DNA of 64,000 nucleotides from Pseudokineococcus lusitanus (GTDB lineage Bacteria > Actinomycetota > Actinomycetes > Actinomycetales > Quadrisphaeraceae): positions 124,001 through 188,000 of the forward strand of contig NZ_RJKN01000001.1 in the NCBI RefSeq assembly GCF_003751265.1, in the 5' to 3' direction. Of the stretch, positions 3,432 through 63,795 are shown piece after piece. Positions within the stretch are counted from its first letter, which is position 1, and each line of letters begins with the position of its first letter. The notes below the pieces were generated by a model. The model was not told the DNA's origin. It saw only the letters and a program-made list of their open reading frames with translations, and ran no database searches. A program made the translations under genes and the position numbers.

Positions 3432-3476
3432 CGACGCCCCCGGCGCCGCCCCGCGAGGGGGGCGCCGGGGGCGTCG
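3432..3476. terminator. Bidirectional hairpin terminator
   Basis: A perfect 15-bp inverted repeat (gacgcccccggcgcc at 3433-3447 and its complement at 3461-3475) lies between the convergent glycosidase and PAC2 genes. There is no T-run, as usual in GC-rich actinobacteria. Confidence 0.75.
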
Positions 3477-3496
3477 GCCGTGGTGGGCGGCCGGGG

Positions 3497-4390
3497 TCAG
3501 GACGGGCCGCGGGGCCCCCGGGGCCGCTGGTCGTCGTCGCCGCGCCGGCGCAGGTAGCGCTCGAACTCGCGGGCGATGGCCTCGCCGCTCGCCTCGGGCA
3601 GCTCGGCGGTGTCCTTGGCCTGCTCGAGCTGCTGGACGTACTCGGCGATCTCCTCGTCCTCGCCGGCCAGCTCGTCGACGCCGCGCTCCCACGCCTCGGC
3701 CTCCTCGGCCAGGTCCTCGAGCGGGACGGCCGCGCCGACGACCTCCTCGACGCGGCCCAGCAGCGCCATGACGGCCTTGGGGGAGGGGGACTGCCCGACG
3801 TAGTGCGGCACGGCCGCCCACAGCGAGACCGCCTGCAGCCCACGGCTCGACGCCGTGTCACCGACGACGCCGACGATGCCGGTGGGGCCTTCGTAGCGCG
3901 ACGGCTCGAGGGCCAGGTGCTCGAGGCCCGGGTCGTCGCTCGTCGACGTGATGGGGATGGGCCGCGTGTGCGGGACGTCGGCGAGCAGGGCGCCGAGGAT
4001 GACGACCGTGCGGGCGCCGAGCGCCTCGGCGTGGTCGAGCACCTCGCGCGTGTAGGCCCGCCAGCGCATCGACGGCTCGATGCCGTGGACGAGGACGACG
4101 TCGCGCCCGCCCCCCGGGGGCCGCGCCCACGCGAGCCGCGTCGTCGGCCACGTGATGCGGCGGCGGCCGTCCTCGTCGAAGCCCGTGACCGGCCGGTTGA
4201 CCTGGAAGTCGTGGTAGTCCTCGGGGTCCAGCTCGGCGAAGGTCGTCTCGCCCCAGACCCGCGCGAGGTGGTCCAGCGCGCCGCTCGCGGCCTCGGCGGC
4301 GTCGTTCCAGCCCTCGAAGGCCGCGAGCACGACGGGGTCCCTCAGCTCCGGCACCTCGGTGCCCCGGGACCGTCCCACCTGCTCGCTCAC
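3497..4390 (-). CDS. PAC2-family (proteasome assembly chaperone-like) protein
   Basis: 297 residues. The body from about residue 10 to 240 matches the PAC2 family: DPVVLAAFEGWNDAAEAAS near the N-terminus, VLVHGIEP, and the GDTASSRGLQAVSLWAAVPHYV stretch typical of actinobacterial members, followed by an acidic helical tail with RYLRRRG. The open frame runs further upstream to 4672, but GTG at 4390 has a GAGGAG ribosome site 5-6 bases before it, and the upstream part is repeat DNA, so I start here. Eukaryotic PAC2 proteins help assemble 20S proteasomes; the role of actinobacterial homologues is not settled, though this genome does have a proteasome. It is convergent with the glycosidase gene. 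Confidence 0.88.
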   Translation of the reverse strand: MSEQVGRSRGTEVPELRDPVVLAAFEGWNDAAEAASGALDHLARVWGETTFAELDPEDYHDFQVNRPVTGFDEDGRRRITWPTTRLAWARPPGGGRDVVLVHGIEPSMRWRAYTREVLDHAEALGARTVVILGALLADVPHTRPIPITSTSDDPGLEHLALEPSRYEGPTGIVGVVGDTASSRGLQAVSLWAAVPHYVGQSPSPKAVMALLGRVEEVVGAAVPLEDLAEEAEAWERGVDELAGEDEEIAEYVQQLEQAKDTAELPEASGEAIAREFERYLRRRGDDDQRPRGPRGPS

Positions 4391-4547
4391 CACGTCCTCC
4401 TCGTCGGTGCCCCTCGCGGGCGCGGCGCCTGCTCGCCGGGGCCGCTCCACCCTACGGGCGCGCCGTGGACCCGCCCGTCGCACGGGCGGCGGACGGGCCC
4501 ACGAGGGACGCCCTCGCCGGACATCGGGGCAACCGGCTCCCGCAGCC

Positions 4548-4690
4548 CGACTTCGCTGCCGAAGTCGTCGGGAGAGCACCCCATCACCCCACTTCGCTGC
4601 CGAAGTCGGCGGAAGCGCGTCCTGTCGTCCTACGTCGGCAGCGACGTCGACGGCAGAGGGCCCGTGGCCCACCTTCGGCAGCGACGTCGA
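4548..4690. repeat. 41-bp-periodic palindromic array, locus 1 (4 units)
   Basis: Most of the 398-bp gap between the PAC2 and HAD genes that shows structure. Four 20-bp hairpin units begin at 4548, 4589, 4630 and 4670, so spacing is 41, 41 and 40 bp. Unit 1 is CGACTTCGCTGCCGAAGTCG (8-bp stem, CTGC loop). Unit 2 has the same loop, while units 3 and 4 carry GCAG loops, meaning inverted orientation. The 21-bp intervals after units 1 and 2 still resemble the intervals of the longer array at 19745-20031 (shared CGGGAGA and CGGAAG starts). Function unknown. The rest of the gap shows only a -10-like box for the HAD gene. Confidence 0.85.
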
Positions 4691-4788
4691 GAAGGAGGGG
4701 CTCGTCGTCGGCTGCCCGGAGGGCGCCGGGGCGACGGGAGGGGCGGCTCCGGCGGCGGTACCCCGGGCGCGCCTGGGAGACTCGGGCC

Positions 4789-5520
4789 ATGCCCACCCCC
4801 ACGACGCCCGACCGCCCCGTCCCGCTCGCGGCCGCGATGCCGGCCGCGGTGCTGTGGGACATGGACGGCACGCTCGTCGACACCGAGCCGGTGTGGTGGG
4901 CGGCCGAGCGGGCCCTCGTGGAGGCGCACGGCGGCACGTGGTCGGACGAGCAGGCGCTGGCGCTCGTCGGCAGCCAGCTCGAGGTCTCGGCCGAGGTCCT
5001 GCGCGTCGAGGGCGGGGTCGACCTGCCCGTGCCGGAGGTCATCGAGGTGCTGGCGGCGTCCGTCGTCGCGGACCTCGTCAAGGGGCCGCGCTGGCGGCCG
5101 GGGGCGCGCGAGCTCGTCGCCGAGCTCGCCGAGGCCGGTGTGCCCCAGGCCCTCGTGACGATGTCGTGGCGGCACATCGCCGACGCGATGCTCGGCCACC
5201 TGCCCGAGGGCACCTTCGCCGCCGTCGTCACGGGCGACGTCTGCGAGCGCGGGAAGCCGCACCCCGAGCCCTACCTCCGCGCCGCCGAGGCCCTCGGCCT
5301 GCGCCCCGAGGACTGCCTCGCCGTCGAGGACAGCCCCACGGGCGTCGCGTCGGCCGCCGCGGCGGGGGTGCCGGTCGTCGCCGTGCCGCACGCGGTCGTG
5401 GTGCCCGCACGGCCCGGCGTCGCCGTGGTCGGCAGCCTCGCCGGGATGACCACCGGCGACCTCGCGGAGGTCCGGCGCGGCGTCCTCGACGCGGAGGGCG
5501 CACCGCCGCAGGGCGACTGA
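4789..5520 (+). CDS. HAD-superfamily hydrolase (phosphatase/phosphoglucomutase-like)
   Basis: 243 residues. HAD motif I is LWDMDGTLVDTEPVW near residue 22-36 with both catalytic aspartates, motif II is the LVTMS segment near 125, motif III is the lysine in CERGKPHPEPY near 150, and motif IV is EDSPTGVASA near 180. The helical cap between motifs I and II puts it in the beta-phosphoglucomutase-like subgroup (cap type C1). The substrate is unknown; such enzymes dephosphorylate sugar phosphates or isomerise them. The start is fixed by ATG 4789, with GAGACT at 4777-4782 exactly six bases upstream, which suggests a leaderless transcript. The gene stands alone between the palindromic array and the peptide ABC operon. 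Confidence 0.9.
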   Translation: MPTPTTPDRPVPLAAAMPAAVLWDMDGTLVDTEPVWWAAERALVEAHGGTWSDEQALALVGSQLEVSAEVLRVEGGVDLPVPEVIEVLAASVVADLVKGPRWRPGARELVAELAEAGVPQALVTMSWRHIADAMLGHLPEGTFAAVVTGDVCERGKPHPEPYLRAAEALGLRPEDCLAVEDSPTGVASAAAAGVPVVAVPHAVVVPARPGVAVVGSLAGMTTGDLAEVRRGVLDAEGAPPQGD

Positions 5521-5653: not shown

Positions 5654-7306
5654 ATGGTCCGAAGCACGAGGAGCCGGGCCGCGGCCCTCCTCGCGGCGGG
5701 TGCGCTGCTGGCGACCGCCGGCTGCGTCCAGAGCGAGCGGGACGACACGGCCGGCGGGGGCGGCTCCTTCGTCTTCGCGGCGAGCTCGGACCCCGTCGTC
5801 CTCGACCCGGCCTTCGCCAGCGACGGCGAGACCTTCCGTGTGGCGCGCCAGATGTTCGAGGGCCTCGTCGGCACCGAGCCGGGCACCGCGGACCCGGCCC
5901 CGCTGCTCGCGGAGTCCTGGGAGACCGACGACGCCGGCGTCGTCTACACCTTCGACCTGCGCGACGACGTGACCTTCCACGACGGCACGACGTTCGACGC
6001 CGCGGCCGTCTGCGCCAATTTCGACCGCTGGTACAGCTGGACCGGTCTGCAGCAGAACGAGAACATCTCGTACTACTACAACTCGCTGTTCCAGGGCTTC
6101 GCCGAGAGCGAGGACCCCGAGCTCGTCGGCGGCCTCTACGACAGCTGCGAGGCGCAGGACGAGCAGACGGCCGTCGTCACCCTCACGCGGCCCTTCGCCG
6201 GCTTCATCGCCTCGCTGTCGCTGCCCGCCTTCTCCATGCAGAGCCCCACTGCCATGGAGGAGTACGACGCCGACAACCTCTCCGGCTCCGAGGACGACGT
6301 CCGCTTCAGCGCCTACGGCACCGAGCACCCCACCGGCACGGGCCCCTTCCAGTTCGACTCCTGGGAGCGCGGCCAGTCGGTCACCCTCACGCGCTACGAC
6401 GACTACTGGGGCGACGTCGCCCAGCTCGACGAGGTCGTCGTCCAGACCATCGCCGACGGCAACGCCCGCCGGCAGGCGCTCGAGGGCGGCCAGGTCGACG
6501 GCTACGACCTCGTGGCCCCCGGCGACGTGCAGGCGCTCGAGGACGCCGGCTTCCAGATCGAGAACCGGGACCCGTTCAACGTCCTGTACCTCGGGCTCAA
6601 CCAGGCCGTGCCGGAGCTCGCGGACCTCCGCGTCCGCCAGGCCATCGCGCACGCCATCGACAAGGACGCCGTCATCAGCCAGTCGATGCCCGAGGGCTCG
6701 ACCGCGGCGACGCAGTTCATGCCCGACATCGTCACGGGCTTCTCCGACGACGTCGAGACCTACGACTACGACCCGGAGCGGGCGAAGGAGCTGCTCGCCG
6801 AGGCCGGCCAGTCCGACCTCAGCATCGACTTCGTCTACCCGACCGGCGTCTCGCGGCCGTACATGCCGAGCCCGGAGGACACCTTCGTCGCGCTGCGCAG
6901 CCAGCTCGAGGCCGTCGGCATCACGGTCAACCCGGTCGCGCTGCCCTGGTCGCCCGACTACCTCGACCGCATCCAGGGCAGCCCCGACCACGGGCTGCAC
7001 CTGCTCGGCTGGACCGGCGACTACAACGACCCCGACAACTTCGTCGGCGTGTTCTTCGGCACGGAGAAGAACGAGTGGGGCTTCGACAACCCCGAGCTCT
7101 TCTCCGCGCTGGCGGCGGCCCGCGAGCTGCCCGACGCCGACGAGCAGGGCCCCGCGTACGAGGCGATCAACGACCAGATCATGGAGTTCCTGCCCGGCGT
7201 CCCGCTGGCCTCCCCGGTGCCGTCGCTCGCCTTCGCCCCCGAGGTCGAGGGCTACGAGCCCAGCCCGGTGCAGGACGAGGTCTGGAACGGGGTGACGGTC
7301 AGCTGA
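5654..7306 (+). CDS. ABC transporter substrate-binding lipoprotein, family 5 (peptide type)
   Basis: 550 residues. An N-terminal lipoprotein signal ends in LLATAGC (Cys24 lipidated), followed by the family 5 fold: DPVVLDPAF, FEGLV, LAESWETDD, YTFDLRDDVTFHDG, TGPFQFDSWERGQSVTLTRYDDYWG and VRQAIAHAIDKDA. It captures oligopeptides or similar ligands outside the membrane and delivers them to the permeases encoded next. ATG 5654 has a GGGAG ribosome site; TAGCGT at 5594-5599 is a candidate -10, giving a leader of about 50 bases. It is the first gene of a five-gene operon, and a strong hairpin after it probably lets it be made in excess of the membrane parts. Confidence 0.93.
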   Translation: MVRSTRSRAAALLAAGALLATAGCVQSERDDTAGGGGSFVFAASSDPVVLDPAFASDGETFRVARQMFEGLVGTEPGTADPAPLLAESWETDDAGVVYTFDLRDDVTFHDGTTFDAAAVCANFDRWYSWTGLQQNENISYYYNSLFQGFAESEDPELVGGLYDSCEAQDEQTAVVTLTRPFAGFIASLSLPAFSMQSPTAMEEYDADNLSGSEDDVRFSAYGTEHPTGTGPFQFDSWERGQSVTLTRYDDYWGDVAQLDEVVVQTIADGNARRQALEGGQVDGYDLVAPGDVQALEDAGFQIENRDPFNVLYLGLNQAVPELADLRVRQAIAHAIDKDAVISQSMPEGSTAATQFMPDIVTGFSDDVETYDYDPERAKELLAEAGQSDLSIDFVYPTGVSRPYMPSPEDTFVALRSQLEAVGITVNPVALPWSPDYLDRIQGSPDHGLHLLGWTGDYNDPDNFVGVFFGTEKNEWGFDNPELFSALAAARELPDADEQGPAYEAINDQIMEFLPGVPLASPVPSLAFAPEVEGYEPSPVQDEVWNGVTVS

Positions 7307-11700: not shown

Positions 11701-15131
<3,431 letters not shown>

Positions 15132-58806: not shown

Positions 58807-59280
58807 GTGGAGCGGGTGCTGATCTTCGGCCGCGGAGCGGCGGGGAAGTCCACCATGGCGCGGGCTCTGGCCGAAAGCACCGGCCTCCCCGTCGTCGAGC
58901 TCGACCAGCACTTTTGGAGCGATGGCGTCCGGCCGCTGCCCGGCGACGAGTGGATCTCCGTCCAAGAGCGCCTGGCCGGTCGTGATAGGTGGGTCATGGA
59001 CGGGGACCTGGGGCCCCACGACCTCCCGGCGCCCCGACTCTGCCGGGCCGACACCGTCCTCGTCCTCGACCTGTCCCTGGCCCGCTGCGCCTGGCGAGCC
59101 GCGCGTCGCTCCCGCGAGCAGGCCGACTTCTGGTGGTGGGTCGTTACCTGGCGATGGCGCAGCCGCCCCCGCGTGCTTGACGCCATCGCCACCCACGCCC
59201 CCCAGGCGAGAGTCCACCTGCTGCGCACCCCGGCCCAGGTGCGCAGCTTCCTCGCTACCGCCTCGACCGACGCCCGGTGA
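58807..59280 (+). CDS. P-loop kinase-like ATPase (adenylate kinase/shikimate kinase-like)
   Basis: 157 residues. Walker A GRGAAGKST at residues 8-16 begins almost at the N-terminus; LPVVELDQHFW and WVMDGDL follow the pattern of small P-loop proteins annotated as topology modulation or adenylate kinase-like; ARRSREQADFWWWVVTWRWR is the lid-like basic helix. The substrate is unknown. TAGCCT (58794-58799) lies seven bases before GTG 58807. It is convergent with the DUF4262 gene, with repeat copy R1 between them. Confidence 0.8.
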   Translation: MERVLIFGRGAAGKSTMARALAESTGLPVVELDQHFWSDGVRPLPGDEWISVQERLAGRDRWVMDGDLGPHDLPAPRLCRADTVLVLDLSLARCAWRAARRSREQADFWWWVVTWRWRSRPRVLDAIATHAPQARVHLLRTPAQVRSFLATASTDAR

Positions 59281-59316: not shown

Positions 59317-59351
59317 CGATCGTCATCCGGTCAGCGTCCCGCTGACGATCG
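59317..59351. repeat. Island repeat R1, imperfect hairpin
   Basis: Left strand CGATCGTC, then ATCCGG bulging, TCAGCG, a TCC loop and CGCTGA-CGATCG: a 12-bp stem with an eight-base one-sided bulge. It lies between convergent genes (58807 and 59366). ccggtcagcgtcccgctgac at 59327 recurs exactly in R4. Confidence 0.8.
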
Positions 59352-59365
59352 TCTATCGGAGCGGC

Positions 59366-60163
59366 CTACGCGCTACCGAGGGGCCACTGGACCCAGTCCT
59401 GCCCCGCTCCCTCCCTAGTGGCACGGCTGCCCGCCGGGATGGTGAGGGCGACGGCAAGGGAGTGGTCGGCTTCGACGAGCTCCTCCCGGTGCACTGCGGC
59501 AGGGACCGTGTCGTCGGTGACGTCCCCGCCCAGGAGCTGCCAGCCGCCGTCAGCGGTGTGCCAGACGACGGTCACGGCGGCTCCATCCAAGACCGCTTGG
59601 GTCGTGACGACCAGCTCCTCGTTCTCGGCGGCCGCTGGGGACGGCGGCACGTCGGGGCACGGCAGCGCGAGCAGGTCTTCGTCGACGGGGCCTCGTAGCT
59701 GTTGGAGCGATGAGGGGTTGGCGTAGCCCTCGTGCCAGGGGAAGCGGCCGGTGGAGTCGGTCCAGACGACCTGGAGCACGGAACGGCTCCCGTACAGCTG
59801 CCGCACGGCGTCGAGGTCACTGGCGTCCTGGACGGGGATGACGGCGACGGGCAGTCCCTCGCTGCCGTCGGGGTGGCCGGCCTCGAGGTGCTGGCCGGCC
59901 TCGAGCACGAGTCCCTGCTGGACGACCCGGCGTCCCAGCTGGTCGAGCAACGCGTGGGCCGACTCCGGGGGCAGTCCGGTGCACAGCAGCTCCGGTTGGT
60001 CCTTGAGGCTGAGGCCGACCGTGTACGCCAGCGCCCCCTCGTCGCTGGCGGGATGAGGCCCGGCCACCATCCGCACGGCCACGCCGTGCTCAGCGACCAT
60101 GCCCTCCAACTCGGCGAGGATCCCGTCCACCTCCGCACCGGCCGCCTTGGGGTCGTCACTCAT
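59366..60163 (-). CDS. DUF4262 domain protein
   Basis: 265 residues. The N-terminal half has the DUF4262 pattern (LAYTVGLSLKDQPELLCTGL, ESAHALLDQLGRRVV); the middle contains VLQVVWTDSTGRFPWHEGY; the C-terminal half (VVWHTADGGWQLLGGDVTDD) resembles an immunity-type SUKH/DUF2185-like fold seen in similar proteins. Function unknown; such proteins are frequent in mobile regions. TAGATT (complement of 60170-60175) is six bases before ATG 60163, a leaderless-type start. Flanked by R1 and R2 repeats. Confidence 0.75.
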   Translation of the reverse strand: MSDDPKAAGAEVDGILAELEGMVAEHGVAVRMVAGPHPASDEGALAYTVGLSLKDQPELLCTGLPPESAHALLDQLGRRVVQQGLVLEAGQHLEAGHPDGSEGLPVAVIPVQDASDLDAVRQLYGSRSVLQVVWTDSTGRFPWHEGYANPSSLQQLRGPVDEDLLALPCPDVPPSPAAAENEELVVTTQAVLDGAAVTVVWHTADGGWQLLGGDVTDDTVPAAVHREELVEADHSLAVALTIPAGSRATREGAGQDWVQWPLGSA

Positions 60164-60273
60164 GGCCAGAATCTATGGCTGACAGCCACCCTGTGAGGAG
60201 CGCTCAGAGGCCAAGCCCACGAATGAGCGACAGCGCGCCAGTTCGCACAATGGCCTCGCCCGCCGGTGCCGCC

Positions 60274-60330
60274 ACTGACCGGATGAGGATCGTCATCCGA
60301 CACGCTCCGCGAGCTCATCGTGTGCGGGAT
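60274..60330. repeat. Island repeat R2
   Basis: 60291-60320 matches 61520-61549 (R4 left part) at 26 of 30 bases, and gatcgtcatccg is shared with R1. It lies in the gap between the divergent DUF4262 and 60370 genes. Confidence 0.65.
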
Positions 60331-60369
60331 GCCGAGCGGGACGGCGGTCGGGCGTCCTAACTTCGCGGC

Positions 60370-60609
60370 ATGGCGATCGTGAGCGGCCCGTCGAGCCGTT
60401 GGTCATGGGGCGCCCTCTGGCTGTGGCTGGCCGCTGTTGGACTACTGGTCCTCGCAGCCGTCATGGCGCTGCCCATGGTGTTCGAGTCGAGCCCCGGGGA
60501 GAGGGCGGAGGCCGTGAGGGGTCTCTGGCCAGCGGTCGTAACCGTCGCTCTCGCCGGCGTGGCAGCGGCCGTCGCTGGCTCTGCGTGCCTGCGACGAGTG
60601 CCCCGCTGA
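60370..60609 (+). CDS. Small two-helix membrane protein, unknown
   Basis: 79 residues with two hydrophobic helices (ALWLWLAAVGLLVLAAVMAL and VVTVALAGVAAAVAGSACL) separated by a short charged loop. No family recognised. TAACTT (60358-60363) stands six bases before ATG 60370, which supports it as a real leaderless gene. It is followed by another small gene on the same strand after 71 bases. Confidence 0.6.
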   Translation: MAIVSGPSSRWSWGALWLWLAAVGLLVLAAVMALPMVFESSPGERAEAVRGLWPAVVTVALAGVAAAVAGSACLRRVPR

Positions 60610-60680
60610 CCGATCGGCCCGGCGGAGCGTGCCAGCAGGCGATCCTCAACCGGTGTGCCTCGCGGTCGTAGCGTCGACGC

Positions 60681-61007
60681 ATGAGGCAGGACGACAGGGC
60701 GGAGCGTCTGCTGGTCCGGCTCTTCCCCGACTACGGCGCGGAGTGGCCGGTGTGGGGTTCAAGGGGTGCAGGCCGGCAGGGGTTGCTCTCCCCGGCGCAC
60801 TTCCCCGGCCTCCCCGCCGACCTCGTCGAGGACCTCAGAAGCTGGCAGCGCCGATGGGAGGACAAGCACCCCGAGCCATGGATCGACCGCCGCCCTCCCC
60901 AGGCCGCGGAACGCCAGGCCGAGCTCGACCGGCTCGCGCAGCGCCTCGCGGCTGAGGTGAGCGGCACCGCTGACGTCCAGACGGACACCTGGTCCAGCAC
61001 CGGCTGA
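60681..61007 (+). CDS. Hypothetical protein
   Basis: 108 residues, cytoplasmic, no named family. RAERLLVRLFPDYGAEWPVW and LPADLVEDLRSWQRRWEDKH look like a short alpha-helical protein of a type common in actinobacterial islands. Codon third-position bias is good. TAGCGT (60669-60674) is six bases before ATG 60681. Repeat copy R3 follows. Confidence 0.65.
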   Translation: MRQDDRAERLLVRLFPDYGAEWPVWGSRGAGRQGLLSPAHFPGLPADLVEDLRSWQRRWEDKHPEPWIDRRPPQAAERQAELDRLAQRLAAEVSGTADVQTDTWSSTG

Positions 61008-61046
61008 ACGACTGCGGGCGGCATCCAGCCAGCTCCGAGCCGCCCC

Positions 61047-61068
61047 CGCTGACGATCGCTGGCCGGTC
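61047..61068. repeat. Island repeat R3, partial
   Basis: cgctgacgatcgctggccgg plus tc. It combines the right arm of R1 (CGCTGACGATCG) with the atcgctggccggtc stretch found exactly in R4. It lies between two plus-strand genes. Confidence 0.65.
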
Positions 61069-61109
61069 GCTACCAAAGTTGCGGTTGCGCGCTGCGGGAG
61101 GATGCCGAC

Positions 61110-61499
61110 ATGCAGACAGCTGAGGGCGTTGAAGTCCCGCGGCCGCTGACGCGGCGCGAAGAGGCTGTCCTCGTCGCCATGATCAAGAACGCGAATCCCT
61201 GGGACGACGACGTCCCGGTCACGGACGCCGACCGGTCCCGCTGGCTCGCGCAAGTCAGCGGTACCCGCGCCGGTCGCCCCTGTGGATGTGGGACGTGCCC
61301 GTCCATCGGGCTCACGAACGCTGACGGTCTGACGCCTGACTTCTCGGAGAGCCGCGTGGTGCTACAAGCCAGCGCCACGGGCGCACTGCTGTTGCTCTTC
61401 GTCGACGACGACAGCCTCAGCGAGTTGGAGCTCGCCCCTCTGAGCGAGAAAACGTCCTTCCAACAATTCCCCGATGCGACGGGTCTCGCCTTCCCGTAG
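61110..61499 (+). CDS. Hypothetical protein with Cys motif
   Basis: 129 residues. LTRREEAVLVAMIKNANPWD is followed by PCGCGTCPSIGL, a short Cys-rich motif that may bind metal, and by VVLQASATGALLLLFVDDD. Similar hypothetical proteins with an RCGCGCPS-type motif occur in actinobacteria; function unknown. ATG 61110 has GGGAGG eight bases before it. It is convergent with the cold-shock-like gene, with R4 between them. Confidence 0.65.
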   Translation: MQTAEGVEVPRPLTRREEAVLVAMIKNANPWDDDVPVTDADRSRWLAQVSGTRAGRPCGCGTCPSIGLTNADGLTPDFSESRVVLQASATGALLLLFVDDDSLSELELAPLSEKTSFQQFPDATGLAFP

Positions 61500-61519
61500 A
61501 TGCCGCTCCGGCTGTGGAT

Positions 61520-61585
61520 CGGCATCCGGCACGCTCCGCGATCCCATCGCTGGCCGGTCAGCGTCCCGCTGACGATGGCGTCCGG
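61520..61585. repeat. Island repeat R4, longest copy
   Basis: Left part 61520-61549 matches R2; right part 61554-61576 is an exact 23-base match to R1 (59327-59349). R4 therefore joins both halves of the family. It lies between convergent genes. Confidence 0.8.
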
Positions 61586-61613
61586 ACACGGCCGCGGATG
61601 GACCTGTGACTGG

Positions 61614-61916
61614 TCAGCTCGCGTCGTCGTCGAAGCGGATCGTCAGCGTGCTGCTGCAGGCCCCGTCCTGGTCCGGGCCGTCGTGATCGACCGGTTCTAC
61701 GCCGGTCGGCCACGCCCGCAGCGCGCGGTAGCTGTAGCCGTCCTGGTCGGCCGGCTCCCACTCGAGCTCGACGTCCTGGCCCGGCGGCAGGCTGCGGAAG
61801 CCGTCGATGGCGATGCTCGACCAGTGCGTCCAGCACCCACCGGGGGTCTCGGGCGCGTCGAGGACGCCCCAGCCCTCGCCCTCGTCCCACTCGCGCACTA
61901 CCGCCGTGACCGCCAC
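61614..61916 (-). CDS. Cold-shock-domain-like protein
   Basis: 100 residues. VTAVVREWDEGEGWGVLDAP, GGCWTHWSSIAIDGFRSLPP and GQDVELEWEPADQDGYSYRA follow the five-strand cold-shock pattern (the GWG and W/F positions are kept), so nucleic-acid binding is likely. The aromatic RNP1/RNP2 set is altered compared with CspA, and a C-terminal acidic tail is added. GTG 61916 has CACGAT six bases upstream. Flanked by R4 and R5. Confidence 0.75.
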   Translation of the reverse strand: MAVTAVVREWDEGEGWGVLDAPETPGGCWTHWSSIAIDGFRSLPPGQDVELEWEPADQDGYSYRALRAWPTGVEPVDHDGPDQDGACSSTLTIRFDDDAS

Positions 61917-61968
61917 GGGCCCATCGTGCCCACGCCGGGAGGCGTCGGGGTCCAGCTGCGCCGGATGA

Positions 61969-61992
61969 CGATCGTCGTCCGGTCAGCGTCCC
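61969..61992. repeat. Island repeat R5
   Basis: cgatcgtcgtccggtcagcg plus tccc matches R1 at 23 of 24 bases, but its right arm is degenerate (ggtgatga), so the hairpin is broken. It lies between the cold-shock-like gene and the tiny membrane genes. Confidence 0.75.
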
Positions 61993-62040
61993 GGTGATGA
62001 AGGCCGCACCCTCACTACCGCCTCAGCGTCACCTTGGTCG

Positions 62041-62154
62041 CTAGGCGAAGCGCCAGATCGCCACAACGGCGCACAGGGCCAAGAAGGACCCGTACATGAT
62101 GATCTGACCTCGGGTGCTGGCGGGCCGCCAGTTACCGCCCTTCACCCAGGGCAT
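62041..62154 (-). CDS. Tiny membrane protein, 37 residues, coupled to the preceding ORF
   Basis: 37 residues: a polar start (MPWVKGGNWRPAST) and one hydrophobic helix (IIMYGSFLALCAVVAIWRF). Its ATG shares one base with the TAA of the upstream 25-residue frame (TAATG), a classic coupling signal. Base composition is lower in GC than the chromosome average. No family recognised. It could be a small membrane toxin, holin-like or regulatory peptide; nothing in the sequence decides. Confidence 0.5.
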   Translation of the reverse strand: MPWVKGGNWRPASTRGQIIMYGSFLALCAVVAIWRFA

Positions 62155-62231
62155 TACTTCTTGTTCCTGCGCAGGAACATGACAACCGCAATGACGGCGA
62201 AGATGGCAATGAGAACAAAGAAGAACTCCAT
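62154..62231 (-). CDS. Tiny membrane protein, 25 residues
   Basis: 25 residues, almost all one transmembrane helix: MEFFFVLIAIFAVIAVVMFL then a basic RRNKK end. The frame is open upstream to 62360, with GTG choices that would add about 11 residues, but the hydrophobic block begins at this ATG. It ends in TAATG, coupling it to the 37-residue ORF. Confidence 0.5.
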   Translation of the reverse strand: MEFFFVLIAIFAVIAVVMFLRRNKK

Positions 62232-62601
62232 GCTGATGGAGCCGCCGCTAGTACCCACTGTCACCTCACCACTAATGGCGGCCGCGCCCACGCTGCCCGC
62301 TCTGGGGCGGCGACCATAGCCAGGCCGACGACGATGCGCCCCCCAGCAGCGACACACCACTCGTCCGTGTTGCCACCTGTAGCACCCGTCTCACTTGACG
62401 ACCGTCTACCGGTGACGCCACAGGTCAGCGGCCCGTCGAGGCGTCGCTTGGCAGCGGGCGTCCCGATAGCCCTGTCCGGTTTGAATTTTCACTCAGGGGC
62501 GTCATACGGACGGCCCCGGTGGCGGCGCGAGAGTCGGTTGGCCTCGCGGGCGAGCTGGACGATCGAAGGTCCCGACCATGCGGCGAACCTGGGCGTCGCC
62601 G
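62232..62601. other. Gene-free stretch with AT-richer patch
   Basis: No gene supported over about 370 bases. It contains ttgacgaccgtctaccggtg with a following caggtcagcgg (62394-62431), a weak relative of the island repeats, and a patch TTTGAATTTTCACTCA near 62480-62495 that is unusually AT-rich. The minus-strand frame 62489-62701 has no start or family support. Confidence 0.5.
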
Positions 62602-63039
62602 TCAGCGGCGCGCCAGCTGTAGCTGCTCGCGCGTCCACGGGCCCGCGCCGTGCAGCCACCGGTCCAACCAGTGAGGCCACCGGACCCATCGGCGGTTCCA
62701 CTCCTGGAGGAAGCAGGCCTCGGCGTAGTCCAACGGGGTGACGACGCCTGCCGTGGCGGTGCCCGCGGGCGACCGGCGCACGGCGTCGTCGACCAGCGCC
62801 TGCAGCGCGGCGGCGTCGACCTCACCGGTGAGGGTGAGCACCACGCGCTCCTCCTTCCGCACGCTCGCGATGGCCAGGACCGCGCCGTCGACTCGATAGG
62901 CGGCCACGTACTCGCCGTCCTCGACCATCAGGAACTCCATCGACCCAGCCGCATACGCCGCATCGGCGTAGACGTCGAGGTCACCGTCACGGTCGAGCAC
63001 GAAGACCGCCCCGCCGACCGGCGCCTCATCACGAGCCAC
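62602..63039 (-). CDS. Hypothetical protein downstream of the recombinase
   Basis: 145 residues, no family recognised. AVFVLDRDGDLDVYADAAYA and SMEFLMVEDGEYVAAYRVDG suggest a small beta-sandwich; VVLTLTGEVDAAALQALVDD and ACFLQEWNRRWVRWPHWLDR follow, with many Trp and Arg at the end. Similar unknown proteins occur in actinobacteria. GTG 63039 is chosen, seven bases upstream of the recombinase stop; ATG 63057 is the alternative and gives a longer overlap. Cotranscription with the recombinase is likely. Confidence 0.65.
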   Translation of the reverse strand: MARDEAPVGGAVFVLDRDGDLDVYADAAYAAGSMEFLMVEDGEYVAAYRVDGAVLAIASVRKEERVVLTLTGEVDAAALQALVDDAVRRSPAGTATAGVVTPLDYAEACFLQEWNRRWVRWPHWLDRWLHGAGPWTREQLQLARR

Positions 63040-63622
63040 CGCCGACCCCCTGCTCATCCGTCGCCCGCGAGCCCAGGACGTTGCGGTAGATGGTGTTGCG
63101 GGAGACACCGAGGTGGGCGGCAACGCCGGTGACGGTGGCGCCCGGCTGGGCGAGCAGCGCCCGGGCCGCCTCGATCCGCTCGGGGCCCATGACGGTCGGG
63201 CGGCCGCCGACGCGGCCGCGGGCGCGGGCGGCCTCGAGCCCGGCGATGGTCCGCTCCCGGATGAGCTGACGCTCGAAGTCCGCCAGGGCCCCGAAGATCG
63301 AGAACACCAGCCGACCGCCGGCGGTGGTGGTGTCGATGGACTCGGTCAGGGACCGGAAGCCCACTCCCCTGGCCTCGAGCTCGTTGACCGTGGCGAGCAG
63401 GTGCGGCAGGGACCGGCCGAGCCGGTCCAAACGCCAGACGACGAGGGTGTCGCCGGGCAGCAGCCGCTCGAGGAGCTGGGCTAGCTGAGGCCGGTCGTCG
63501 CGGGAGCCGGAGGCGACGTCGGTCCACAGCCGGGCGCAGCCGGCAGCGGTCAGCGCATCGTGCTGGAGCGAAGCGTCCTGCGAGGTCGTCGAGACCCGGG
63601 CGTATCCGTGGGCGTGAGGCAC
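63029..63622 (-). CDS. Serine recombinase (resolvase/invertase family)
   Basis: 197 residues. HGYARVSTTSQDASLQ contains the catalytic Ser11, VVWRLDRLGRSLPHLL the active-site arginines, FSIFGALADFERQLIRERT the E helix, and GRVGGRPTVM plus VAAHLGVSRNTIYRNV the C-terminal HTH. Size and order match small resolvase/invertase proteins of the Tn3-Gin-Hin group. GTG 63622 is chosen to place Ser near residue 11. The frame is open upstream to 63748 but through the presumed site DNA. Its stop overlaps the next gene. The direct and inverted repeats just upstream are candidate recombination sites. Confidence 0.92.
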   Translation of the reverse strand: MPHAHGYARVSTTSQDASLQHDALTAAGCARLWTDVASGSRDDRPQLAQLLERLLPGDTLVVWRLDRLGRSLPHLLATVNELEARGVGFRSLTESIDTTTAGGRLVFSIFGALADFERQLIRERTIAGLEAARARGRVGGRPTVMGPERIEAARALLAQPGATVTGVAAHLGVSRNTIYRNVLGSRATDEQGVGGGS

Positions 63623-63651
63623 TCCCCCACTGTGCCGGAAAGGCCGACCAC

Positions 63652-63694
63652 CGGGTTGTGGCACGCCGAGGTTTCCGCCACGGGTTTTGGCACG
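63652..63694. repeat. 14-bp direct repeats upstream of the recombinase
   Basis: cgggttgtggcacg (63652-63665) and cgggttttggcacg (63681-63694) differ at one base, 29 bp apart. The location fits accessory binding sites of a resolvase res region. Confidence 0.6.
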
Positions 63695-63746
63695 TCCACT
63701 ATCAGCGTGTCGCGCTCTCGCCGCCCGCCCCCGGCGACTGTCCCTC

Positions 63747-63795
63747 AAACCATCGGTTTAGTTGTGAGGCGGTCGGGTTGTCGCTTCCTCACAAC
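63747..63795. repeat. Inverted repeats upstream of the recombinase
   Basis: AAACC-ATC-GGTTT (63747-63759) is directly followed by GTTGTGAGG (63761-63769) and its exact complement CCTCACAAC (63787-63795) with 17 bases between. This could be a crossover site, a terminator for the converging side, or an element end. Confidence 0.6.

Follow-up and report, generated by a model that had tools for sequence, protein, structure and literature searches.

A putative mobile gene-cassette array bounded by short dyad sites, with a candidate serine recombinase, in Pseudokineococcus

Genes and sites of the island

The window, meaning the whole 64,000-nucleotide stretch of DNA analysed (G000:C1:124001-188000), contains an island of small genes separated by related repeats. 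To the left of the first repeat lies a gene with weak P-loop/kinase matches (58807..59280, + strand), and the homologous stretch at locus L034 of P. marinus (82% over 514 bp) likewise ends at a site. The cassette genes that follow encode a DUF4262 protein (PF14081; 59366..60163, -), whose homolog L033_15170 adjoins a site in P. marinus; a 79-aa membrane-like protein (60370..60609, +); a 108-aa protein of no family (60681..61007, +); a 129-aa protein, also of no family, with homologs at loci L032 and L042 (61110..61499, +); and a 100-aa protein with a weak cold-shock-domain match (61614..61916, -), for which P. marinus has the homolog L031_4529 (79%). Two tiny ORFs of 37 and 34 aa, based on the gene call only, occupy their own segment bounded by the site S described below (62041..62258, -). 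The island extends to about 63.75 kb and takes in a serine recombinase gene of the Gin/DNA-invertase type (63029..63622, -), with a Resolvase N domain (PF00239, 2e-43) and an HTH, which is the candidate enzyme. The recombinase cassette also carries the gene for a 145-aa protein with no assigned function (62602..63039, -), a second copy of which is present in G000:C2. The genes had been described as alternating in direction; their directions are indeed mixed but do not strictly alternate. Across the loci compared, most cassettes contain one or two genes and many cargo genes are without a family. The cargo families include DUF4262, GNAT acetyltransferases, mycothiol-S-transferase, HAD, short-chain dehydrogenase, alpha/beta hydrolase, DUF4304, DUF6226 and a DUF433/DUF5615 toxin-antitoxin-like pair.

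Alignment of 57 good copies of the repeat gave CCCGCWGAC-GATCGNNNNCCGGWCAGCGTCCCGCTGWC-GATCGNNNNCCGG as the consensus of a complete site. Each complete site holds two copies of S, a 22-bp quasi-palindrome (CCSGNNNNCGATCGNNNNCSGG) with GATC at its centre, and the GATC centres of the paired S are spaced 29 bp apart. The stem GWCAGCG-TCC-CGCTGWC forms a short hairpin between the paired S sites; this conserved hairpin has no role in a double-strand model of serine recombination. A second core sub-type, B, is built on the same plan but has a different stem and a spacing of 28 nt. It is seen in the window at R2 and R4, which are 86% alike over 42 nt of the sub-type B core (D3) and have GATC/CATC centres 28 nt apart. 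The 29-bp core corresponds to a left end joined to a right end without cargo and is capable of tandem arrangement, with eight overlapping core matches at 164.3 kb of G000:C2. Some junctions carry one S only, as at 60641 and 61054 in the window.

The repeats R1 to R5 of the original prediction were all found at or very near the coordinates given there, and the same gaps contain boundary sites that it had overlooked, namely a single site at 60641-60644, a left end at 62400 and a right end at 63751-63754. R1 (59318..59350, +) is a complete site whose two GATC centres, 59318 and 59347, are separated by 29 nt, with the hairpin GTCAGCG-TCC-CGCTGAC between them and a covariance-model match at G000:C1:183306-183362 (E 1.8e-15). 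R2 (60288..60319, +), of sub-type B, has its centres at 60288 (GATC) and 60316 (CATC), 28 nt apart. Two single S sites follow, ..GCCAGCAGGC-GATC-CTCAACCGG at 60641..60644 (+; weak PWM score of 14.8) and R3, CCGCTGAC-GATC-GCTGGCCGG, at 61054..61057 (+; PWM 27.4). R4 (61517..61577, +) consists of a sub-type B core (28 nt) and then a sub-type A core (29 nt), with centres at 61517 (GATC), 61545 (CATC) and 61574 (GATG) and a covariance-model E of 1.2e-13. R5 (61970..61999, +) has a GATC centre at 61970 and a degenerate second centre, GATG, at 61996 (covariance-model E 6e-4). The recombinase cassette is bounded by S half-sites. On the left is GACC-GTCTACCGG (62400..62412, +; half-site score p=3e-5), and homology with the copy of the recombinase unit in G000:C2 starts at 62399. 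The right half-site (63739..63754, -; TGTCCCTCAAAC-CATC on the + strand) precedes the recombinase start by about 130 bp and scores p=0.0008 given SATS.

The exact 23-base block said to be shared by R1 and R4 was recovered at 59327-59349 and 61554-61576, and it recurs with 3 mismatches at 61979-62001. Its chance expectation was 0.01 in dinucleotide shuffles, none of which reached 3 matches. When scored over the full 34-position core, the window copies reached 33, 30 and 27, compared to a maximum of 23 in three 64-kb Markov-simulated sequences. The window repeats are real and far beyond chance. Neighbouring sites are co-oriented in 18 of 20 pairs, while the directions of the genes relative to the sites are random (17 vs 15).

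Dispersal of the sites and exchange of cassettes

About 30 repeat matches are present in the window genome, in clusters on contigs C1, C8 and C2 with a few elsewhere. When 84,980 named genomes were scanned for the exact pattern, repeated matches were confined to Pseudokineococcus (two genomes besides P. marinus) and to strain G007, catalogued as 'Streptomyces sp. NP160', which falls in the window's family by genome search. Quadrisphaera INWT6, of the same family, gave one exact-pattern match, and nearly all remaining matches were isolated singles, taken as chance. Searching with the covariance model gave strong sites in each of the four Pseudokineococcus genomes, and the sites of the family's second genus were weaker. 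The repeats thus belong to a dispersed family with members in Pseudokineococcus and, in more divergent form, in Quadrisphaera. This dispersal across genomes contradicts the possibility, raised against the original prediction at the outset, that the repeats occur at a single location where the gene order does not vary. A phage origin of the sites was also considered and rejected, as the site pattern occurs in none of the IMG/VR viral contigs.

An all-against-all comparison of 25 loci was used to identify segments shared between unlike contexts. The ends of homologous segments fell within 25 bp of S in 24 of 100 cases, compared to 3.4 expected (mean of 1000 circular shifts, of which the maximum was 14). 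In several independent pairs, the junction alignments display identity up to GATC and none beyond. A two-gene cassette shared by L031 and L032 is 98% identical over 806 bp with S at both ends; L028 and L041 share a segment at 97%; and L030 and L042 are 99.6% identical over 1011 bp, with one end at a GATC that is followed by no recognisable second half-site. Locus L042 also contains a 763-bp cassette that is tandemly duplicated from S to S with 100% identity. In Quadrisphaera INWT6, one segment is present in two copies, each with one end at S (L145 9959 and L146 4217). Cassettes of the window are seen again in different contexts in P. marinus, and for several of them homology ends at a site. 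The cassette of the 79-aa gene (60317-60644) is found at L032 (7232-7558, 91%) and L034 (76%), site-bounded in each; R2 forms its left end, and the L032 homology ends at the single S of 60641..60644.

Differing cassettes were also seen between matching flanks. L030 and L041, from P. marinus and strain 2-287, have a common flank of 5.1 kb at 88% that ends at S, after which the cassettes differ, and L142 and L033 have flanks that are 90-95% alike around differing inserts. Insertion of cassettes in either orientation relative to S was considered from one possible case, L034 vs the window, which was too unclean to count. No attI-like element was seen in the roughly 110 bp of shared sequence aligned from before some sites. 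As judged from these alignments, cassettes are shown to join, leave and be duplicated with breakpoints at the S centre. Since homology stops at the S centre and orthologous flanks hold different cassettes, the interpretation of the window island as a mobile gene-cassette array is well supported. The suggestion that gene and repeat move as a unit has held up, in that genes differ between relatives and homology ends at the sites.

Terminators or MITE-like dispersed palindromes might produce a similar picture if they were passive repeats between which ordinary homologous or illegitimate recombination had shuffled the genes. Their location in gene gaps and their form as short palindromes suit this explanation, and slippage could yield the tandem 29-bp runs. 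However, homology ends at GATC and not anywhere in the repeat, and such ends include the single 22-bp site at 60641 and the L042 14021 junction, which has no second half-site that can be recognised. The site set also switches its central dinucleotide between genera, as described below. An Rfam search of the site against structured RNA and terminator families returned no match at E<=1, so the ordinary terminator family that would have told against the original prediction did not appear. We regard passive repeats as quite improbable.

The two-base core and candidate enzymes

With the four central bases omitted from scoring, the central dinucleotide is AT in 86 of 99 sites from four Pseudokineococcus genomes and AC in 9 of 11 sites from the one Quadrisphaera INWT6 genome, a small set, with the same flanks. 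S has dyad symmetry about a 2-bp centre that is fixed among the sites of a genome, and among aligned copies the bases flanking the central dinucleotide vary. For serine recombinases it is sufficient that the partners are identical in a 2-bp overlap, whereas tyrosine recombinases need 6-8 bp. Because a genome-wide 2-bp core is the signature of serine recombinases, it points more strongly than any other finding to serine chemistry, which is likely here on the evidence of the sites.

The recombinase encoded in the window is closest to the DNA-invertase structures 4m6f/3uj3 (E about 1e-51). Two PF00239 serine recombinases are present in the window genome, both near arrays. Over 8 genomes, 10 of 29 PF00239 genes lie within 5 kb of a site where 0.5 would be expected; the P of about 2e-11 assumes independence among the recombinase copies, which does not hold for related ones, and so overstates the evidence. 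The expectation that a recombinase would track the repeats has weaker support: serine recombinases are present and clustered with the sites in most site-bearing genomes, but G007 (NP160) has many sites and no detectable PF00239 protein. A few rve transposases occur on the same contigs, and because of these the proximity may partly reflect regions rich in mobile genes.

The recombinase unit (62400-63754) recurs on C2 at 94%. Six group-A copies from three genomes have a common upstream sequence up to SATS-GTTTGAG and then, at the right S half-site, diverge completely; the unit of a group-B copy in G004 terminates at a strong S site located 186 bp upstream of that gene. The stronger proposal, that a full S lies directly upstream of every recombinase gene, was rejected, as a 28-bp matrix found none for most of them and terminal half-site matches occur in group A only. 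The recombinase family is widespread on plasmids, where the five relatives examined share a conserved upstream motif unlike S; S is therefore not a general property of the family.

The hairpin raises another explanation, in which a tyrosine recombinase, either XerCD or an unrecognised IntI-like enzyme, would act on a single-stranded folded site as IntI acts on attC. The site does fold into an imperfect hairpin that bulges on one side, complementary outer arms are present at some sites, and tyrosine recombinases were found in all 12 genomes searched. Stem pairing is conserved, with 89% of cells paired, above shuffles, and covariation also exceeds shuffles, chiefly at one stem pair (T-A 25, A-T 13). 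Because it is strong in that pair only, it may reflect two core lineages instead of many independent changes. The resemblance to attC noted in the original prediction applies to shape and not to sequence. As that prediction had itself remarked, the attC end boxes are not visible (R''/R' boxes, RYYYAAC..GTTRRRY, at just 1 of 57 sites), and none of the 12 genomes, the window's own included, has an integron integrase (TIGR02249) over cut-off. On these two grounds, identity with integrons was rejected. G002 and G003 have sites and only two tyrosine recombinases each, taken as XerC/XerD, and the variable bases beside the central dinucleotide would be forbidden by a 6-8-bp identical overlap. A tyrosine recombinase acting on the folded site is unlikely.

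The ends of IS200/IS605 and REP/RAYT elements have a tetranucleotide next to a hairpin. The anatomy of the sites resembles such ends, which would be processed by a Y1 transposase via single-stranded DNA. However, a Y1_Tnp protein was detected in none of the 12 genomes, including four with many sites, compared to 5 of 14 control genomes that gave matches. This absence of the enzyme contradicts an origin from such elements, and we consider one hardly tenable.

Taken as a whole, the island is probably an S-bounded cassette array shuffled by a site-specific recombinase, for which the invertase-type serine enzyme is the candidate. A cassette is usually one small gene bounded by S, the 22-bp quasi-palindrome with its central SATS (GATC). 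We propose that a site-specific recombinase pairs two S sites, with a predicted cut at the central dinucleotide, which is AT here and AC in Quadrisphaera INWT6, followed by rejoining. Cassettes between co-oriented sites would be excised as circles and could then enter another S or, in rare cases, a site of poorer match. The 29-bp core would act like an empty cassette and build tandem runs. With less certainty, the enzyme may be an invertase-type serine recombinase like the product of 63029-63622, which itself rides in an S-bounded cassette. Cassette genes face in either direction and presumably carry promoters of their own.

Comparison with known cassette systems

Actinobacteria are described as being without complete integrons, and integrons as extremely rare among them for reasons that are unclear (PMC9024848). 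Bacteria long held to lack integrons appear to own a separate gene-shuffling system, with a shuffling enzyme that is probably of a different kind than the integron's. Like integron cassettes (attC/IntI; CALIN), the S arrays consist of small cassettes that are mostly of no assigned function or of toxin-antitoxin or GNAT type, with one co-oriented, hairpin-capable recombination site per gap and a gene content that varies between relatives. Unlike integrons, they have no IntI and no GTTRRRY/RYYYAAC boxes, their breakpoint is at the GATC/AT centre, their gene directions are random, and they form many small clusters per genome instead of one platform.

The dif (pdif) modules of Acinetobacter consist of genes that have short recombination sites at their borders and are reshuffled as units (PMC6449649, PMC13141974). 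The S arrays resemble these XerC/XerD modules in the shuffling of site-bounded genes. A site of that class would be 28 bp long, with XerC and XerD arms around a 6-bp spacer, and would match the chromosomal dif. In contrast to the XerCD dif sites, which have mostly been studied on plasmids, S is GC-rich, has a 2-bp centre beside variable bases and is located in chromosomal islands.

Serine DNA invertases with several or many sites include Mpi of Bacteroides and the Gin/Min type, and the known ones flip promoters or tail-fibre segments. The S arrays share with them a Gin-type candidate enzyme, a short dyad site, a 2-bp core and many sites per genome. They differ in that segments with different cargo are exchanged between loci and between genomes. 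The SCC cassette chromosome recombinases and IS607 are large or transposase-type serine enzymes with one element per site. They too are serine recombinases that mobilise cargo, but the window protein scores far below the NCBIfam cut-offs for both.

A serine-recombinase gene-cassette array was described in no title or abstract found in the literature, a search with subscription journals and preprints outside its scope. Whether the S arrays are an independently evolved, serine-recombinase counterpart of the integron in Actinomycetota, with a self-carried invertase-type enzyme, single-gene cassettes and 2-bp cores that switch between genera, is in our judgement evenly balanced. This actinobacterial cassette system acts in the manner of an integron and yet fails both of the sequence tests by which integrons are defined. 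It would suggest that the capture of cassettes arose more than once, with different recombinase chemistry. It would also offer a route to hidden cassette reservoirs in high-GC genomes, and for DNA assembly it would supply short dyad sites in which the 2-bp core can be switched.

Site arrays and duplicated cassettes

On contig C2 of the window's own genome (164287-164546, corresponding to 14287-14546 of locus L010), the bare 29-bp core occurs in tandem with eight overlapping core matches, as though empty cassettes had accumulated there. A large array is found in Quadrisphaera INWT6 (L145 on G011:C4, 2333-9958), where site centres are mostly AC, nearly all sites share one orientation, and a 29-bp triplet lies at 5886/5915/5944. 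At L042, a cassette of 763 bp is duplicated in exact tandem (3447-4981), with the GATC-centred site S bounding each step; the product of its gene, 147 aa long, weakly matches DUF2550.

Placement of strain NP160

The genome search placed G007, the site-rich genome named 'Streptomyces sp. NP160' (NZ_VDMJ01), in the window's family, where it shares a genus group with Quadrisphaera INWT6. The Streptomyces label is probably a misnaming.

Surroundings of the serine recombinase genes

At L139 (genome G009), two copies of a 568-bp segment (1483-2050 and 3628-4195; 98.6%), each starting at an S site, flank a serine recombinase on both sides. The group-B serine recombinase moves together with a DUF433/DUF5615 toxin-antitoxin-like pair (L029 9378-10736; L028 11190-12547). 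A CCAMAACCCGTGKCSGAAACC-like motif precedes the recombinase gene start in the window (63640-63700) and at loci L147-L151, and this upstream motif is shared with recombinases on plasmids of Kineococcus, Iamia and Rhodococcus.
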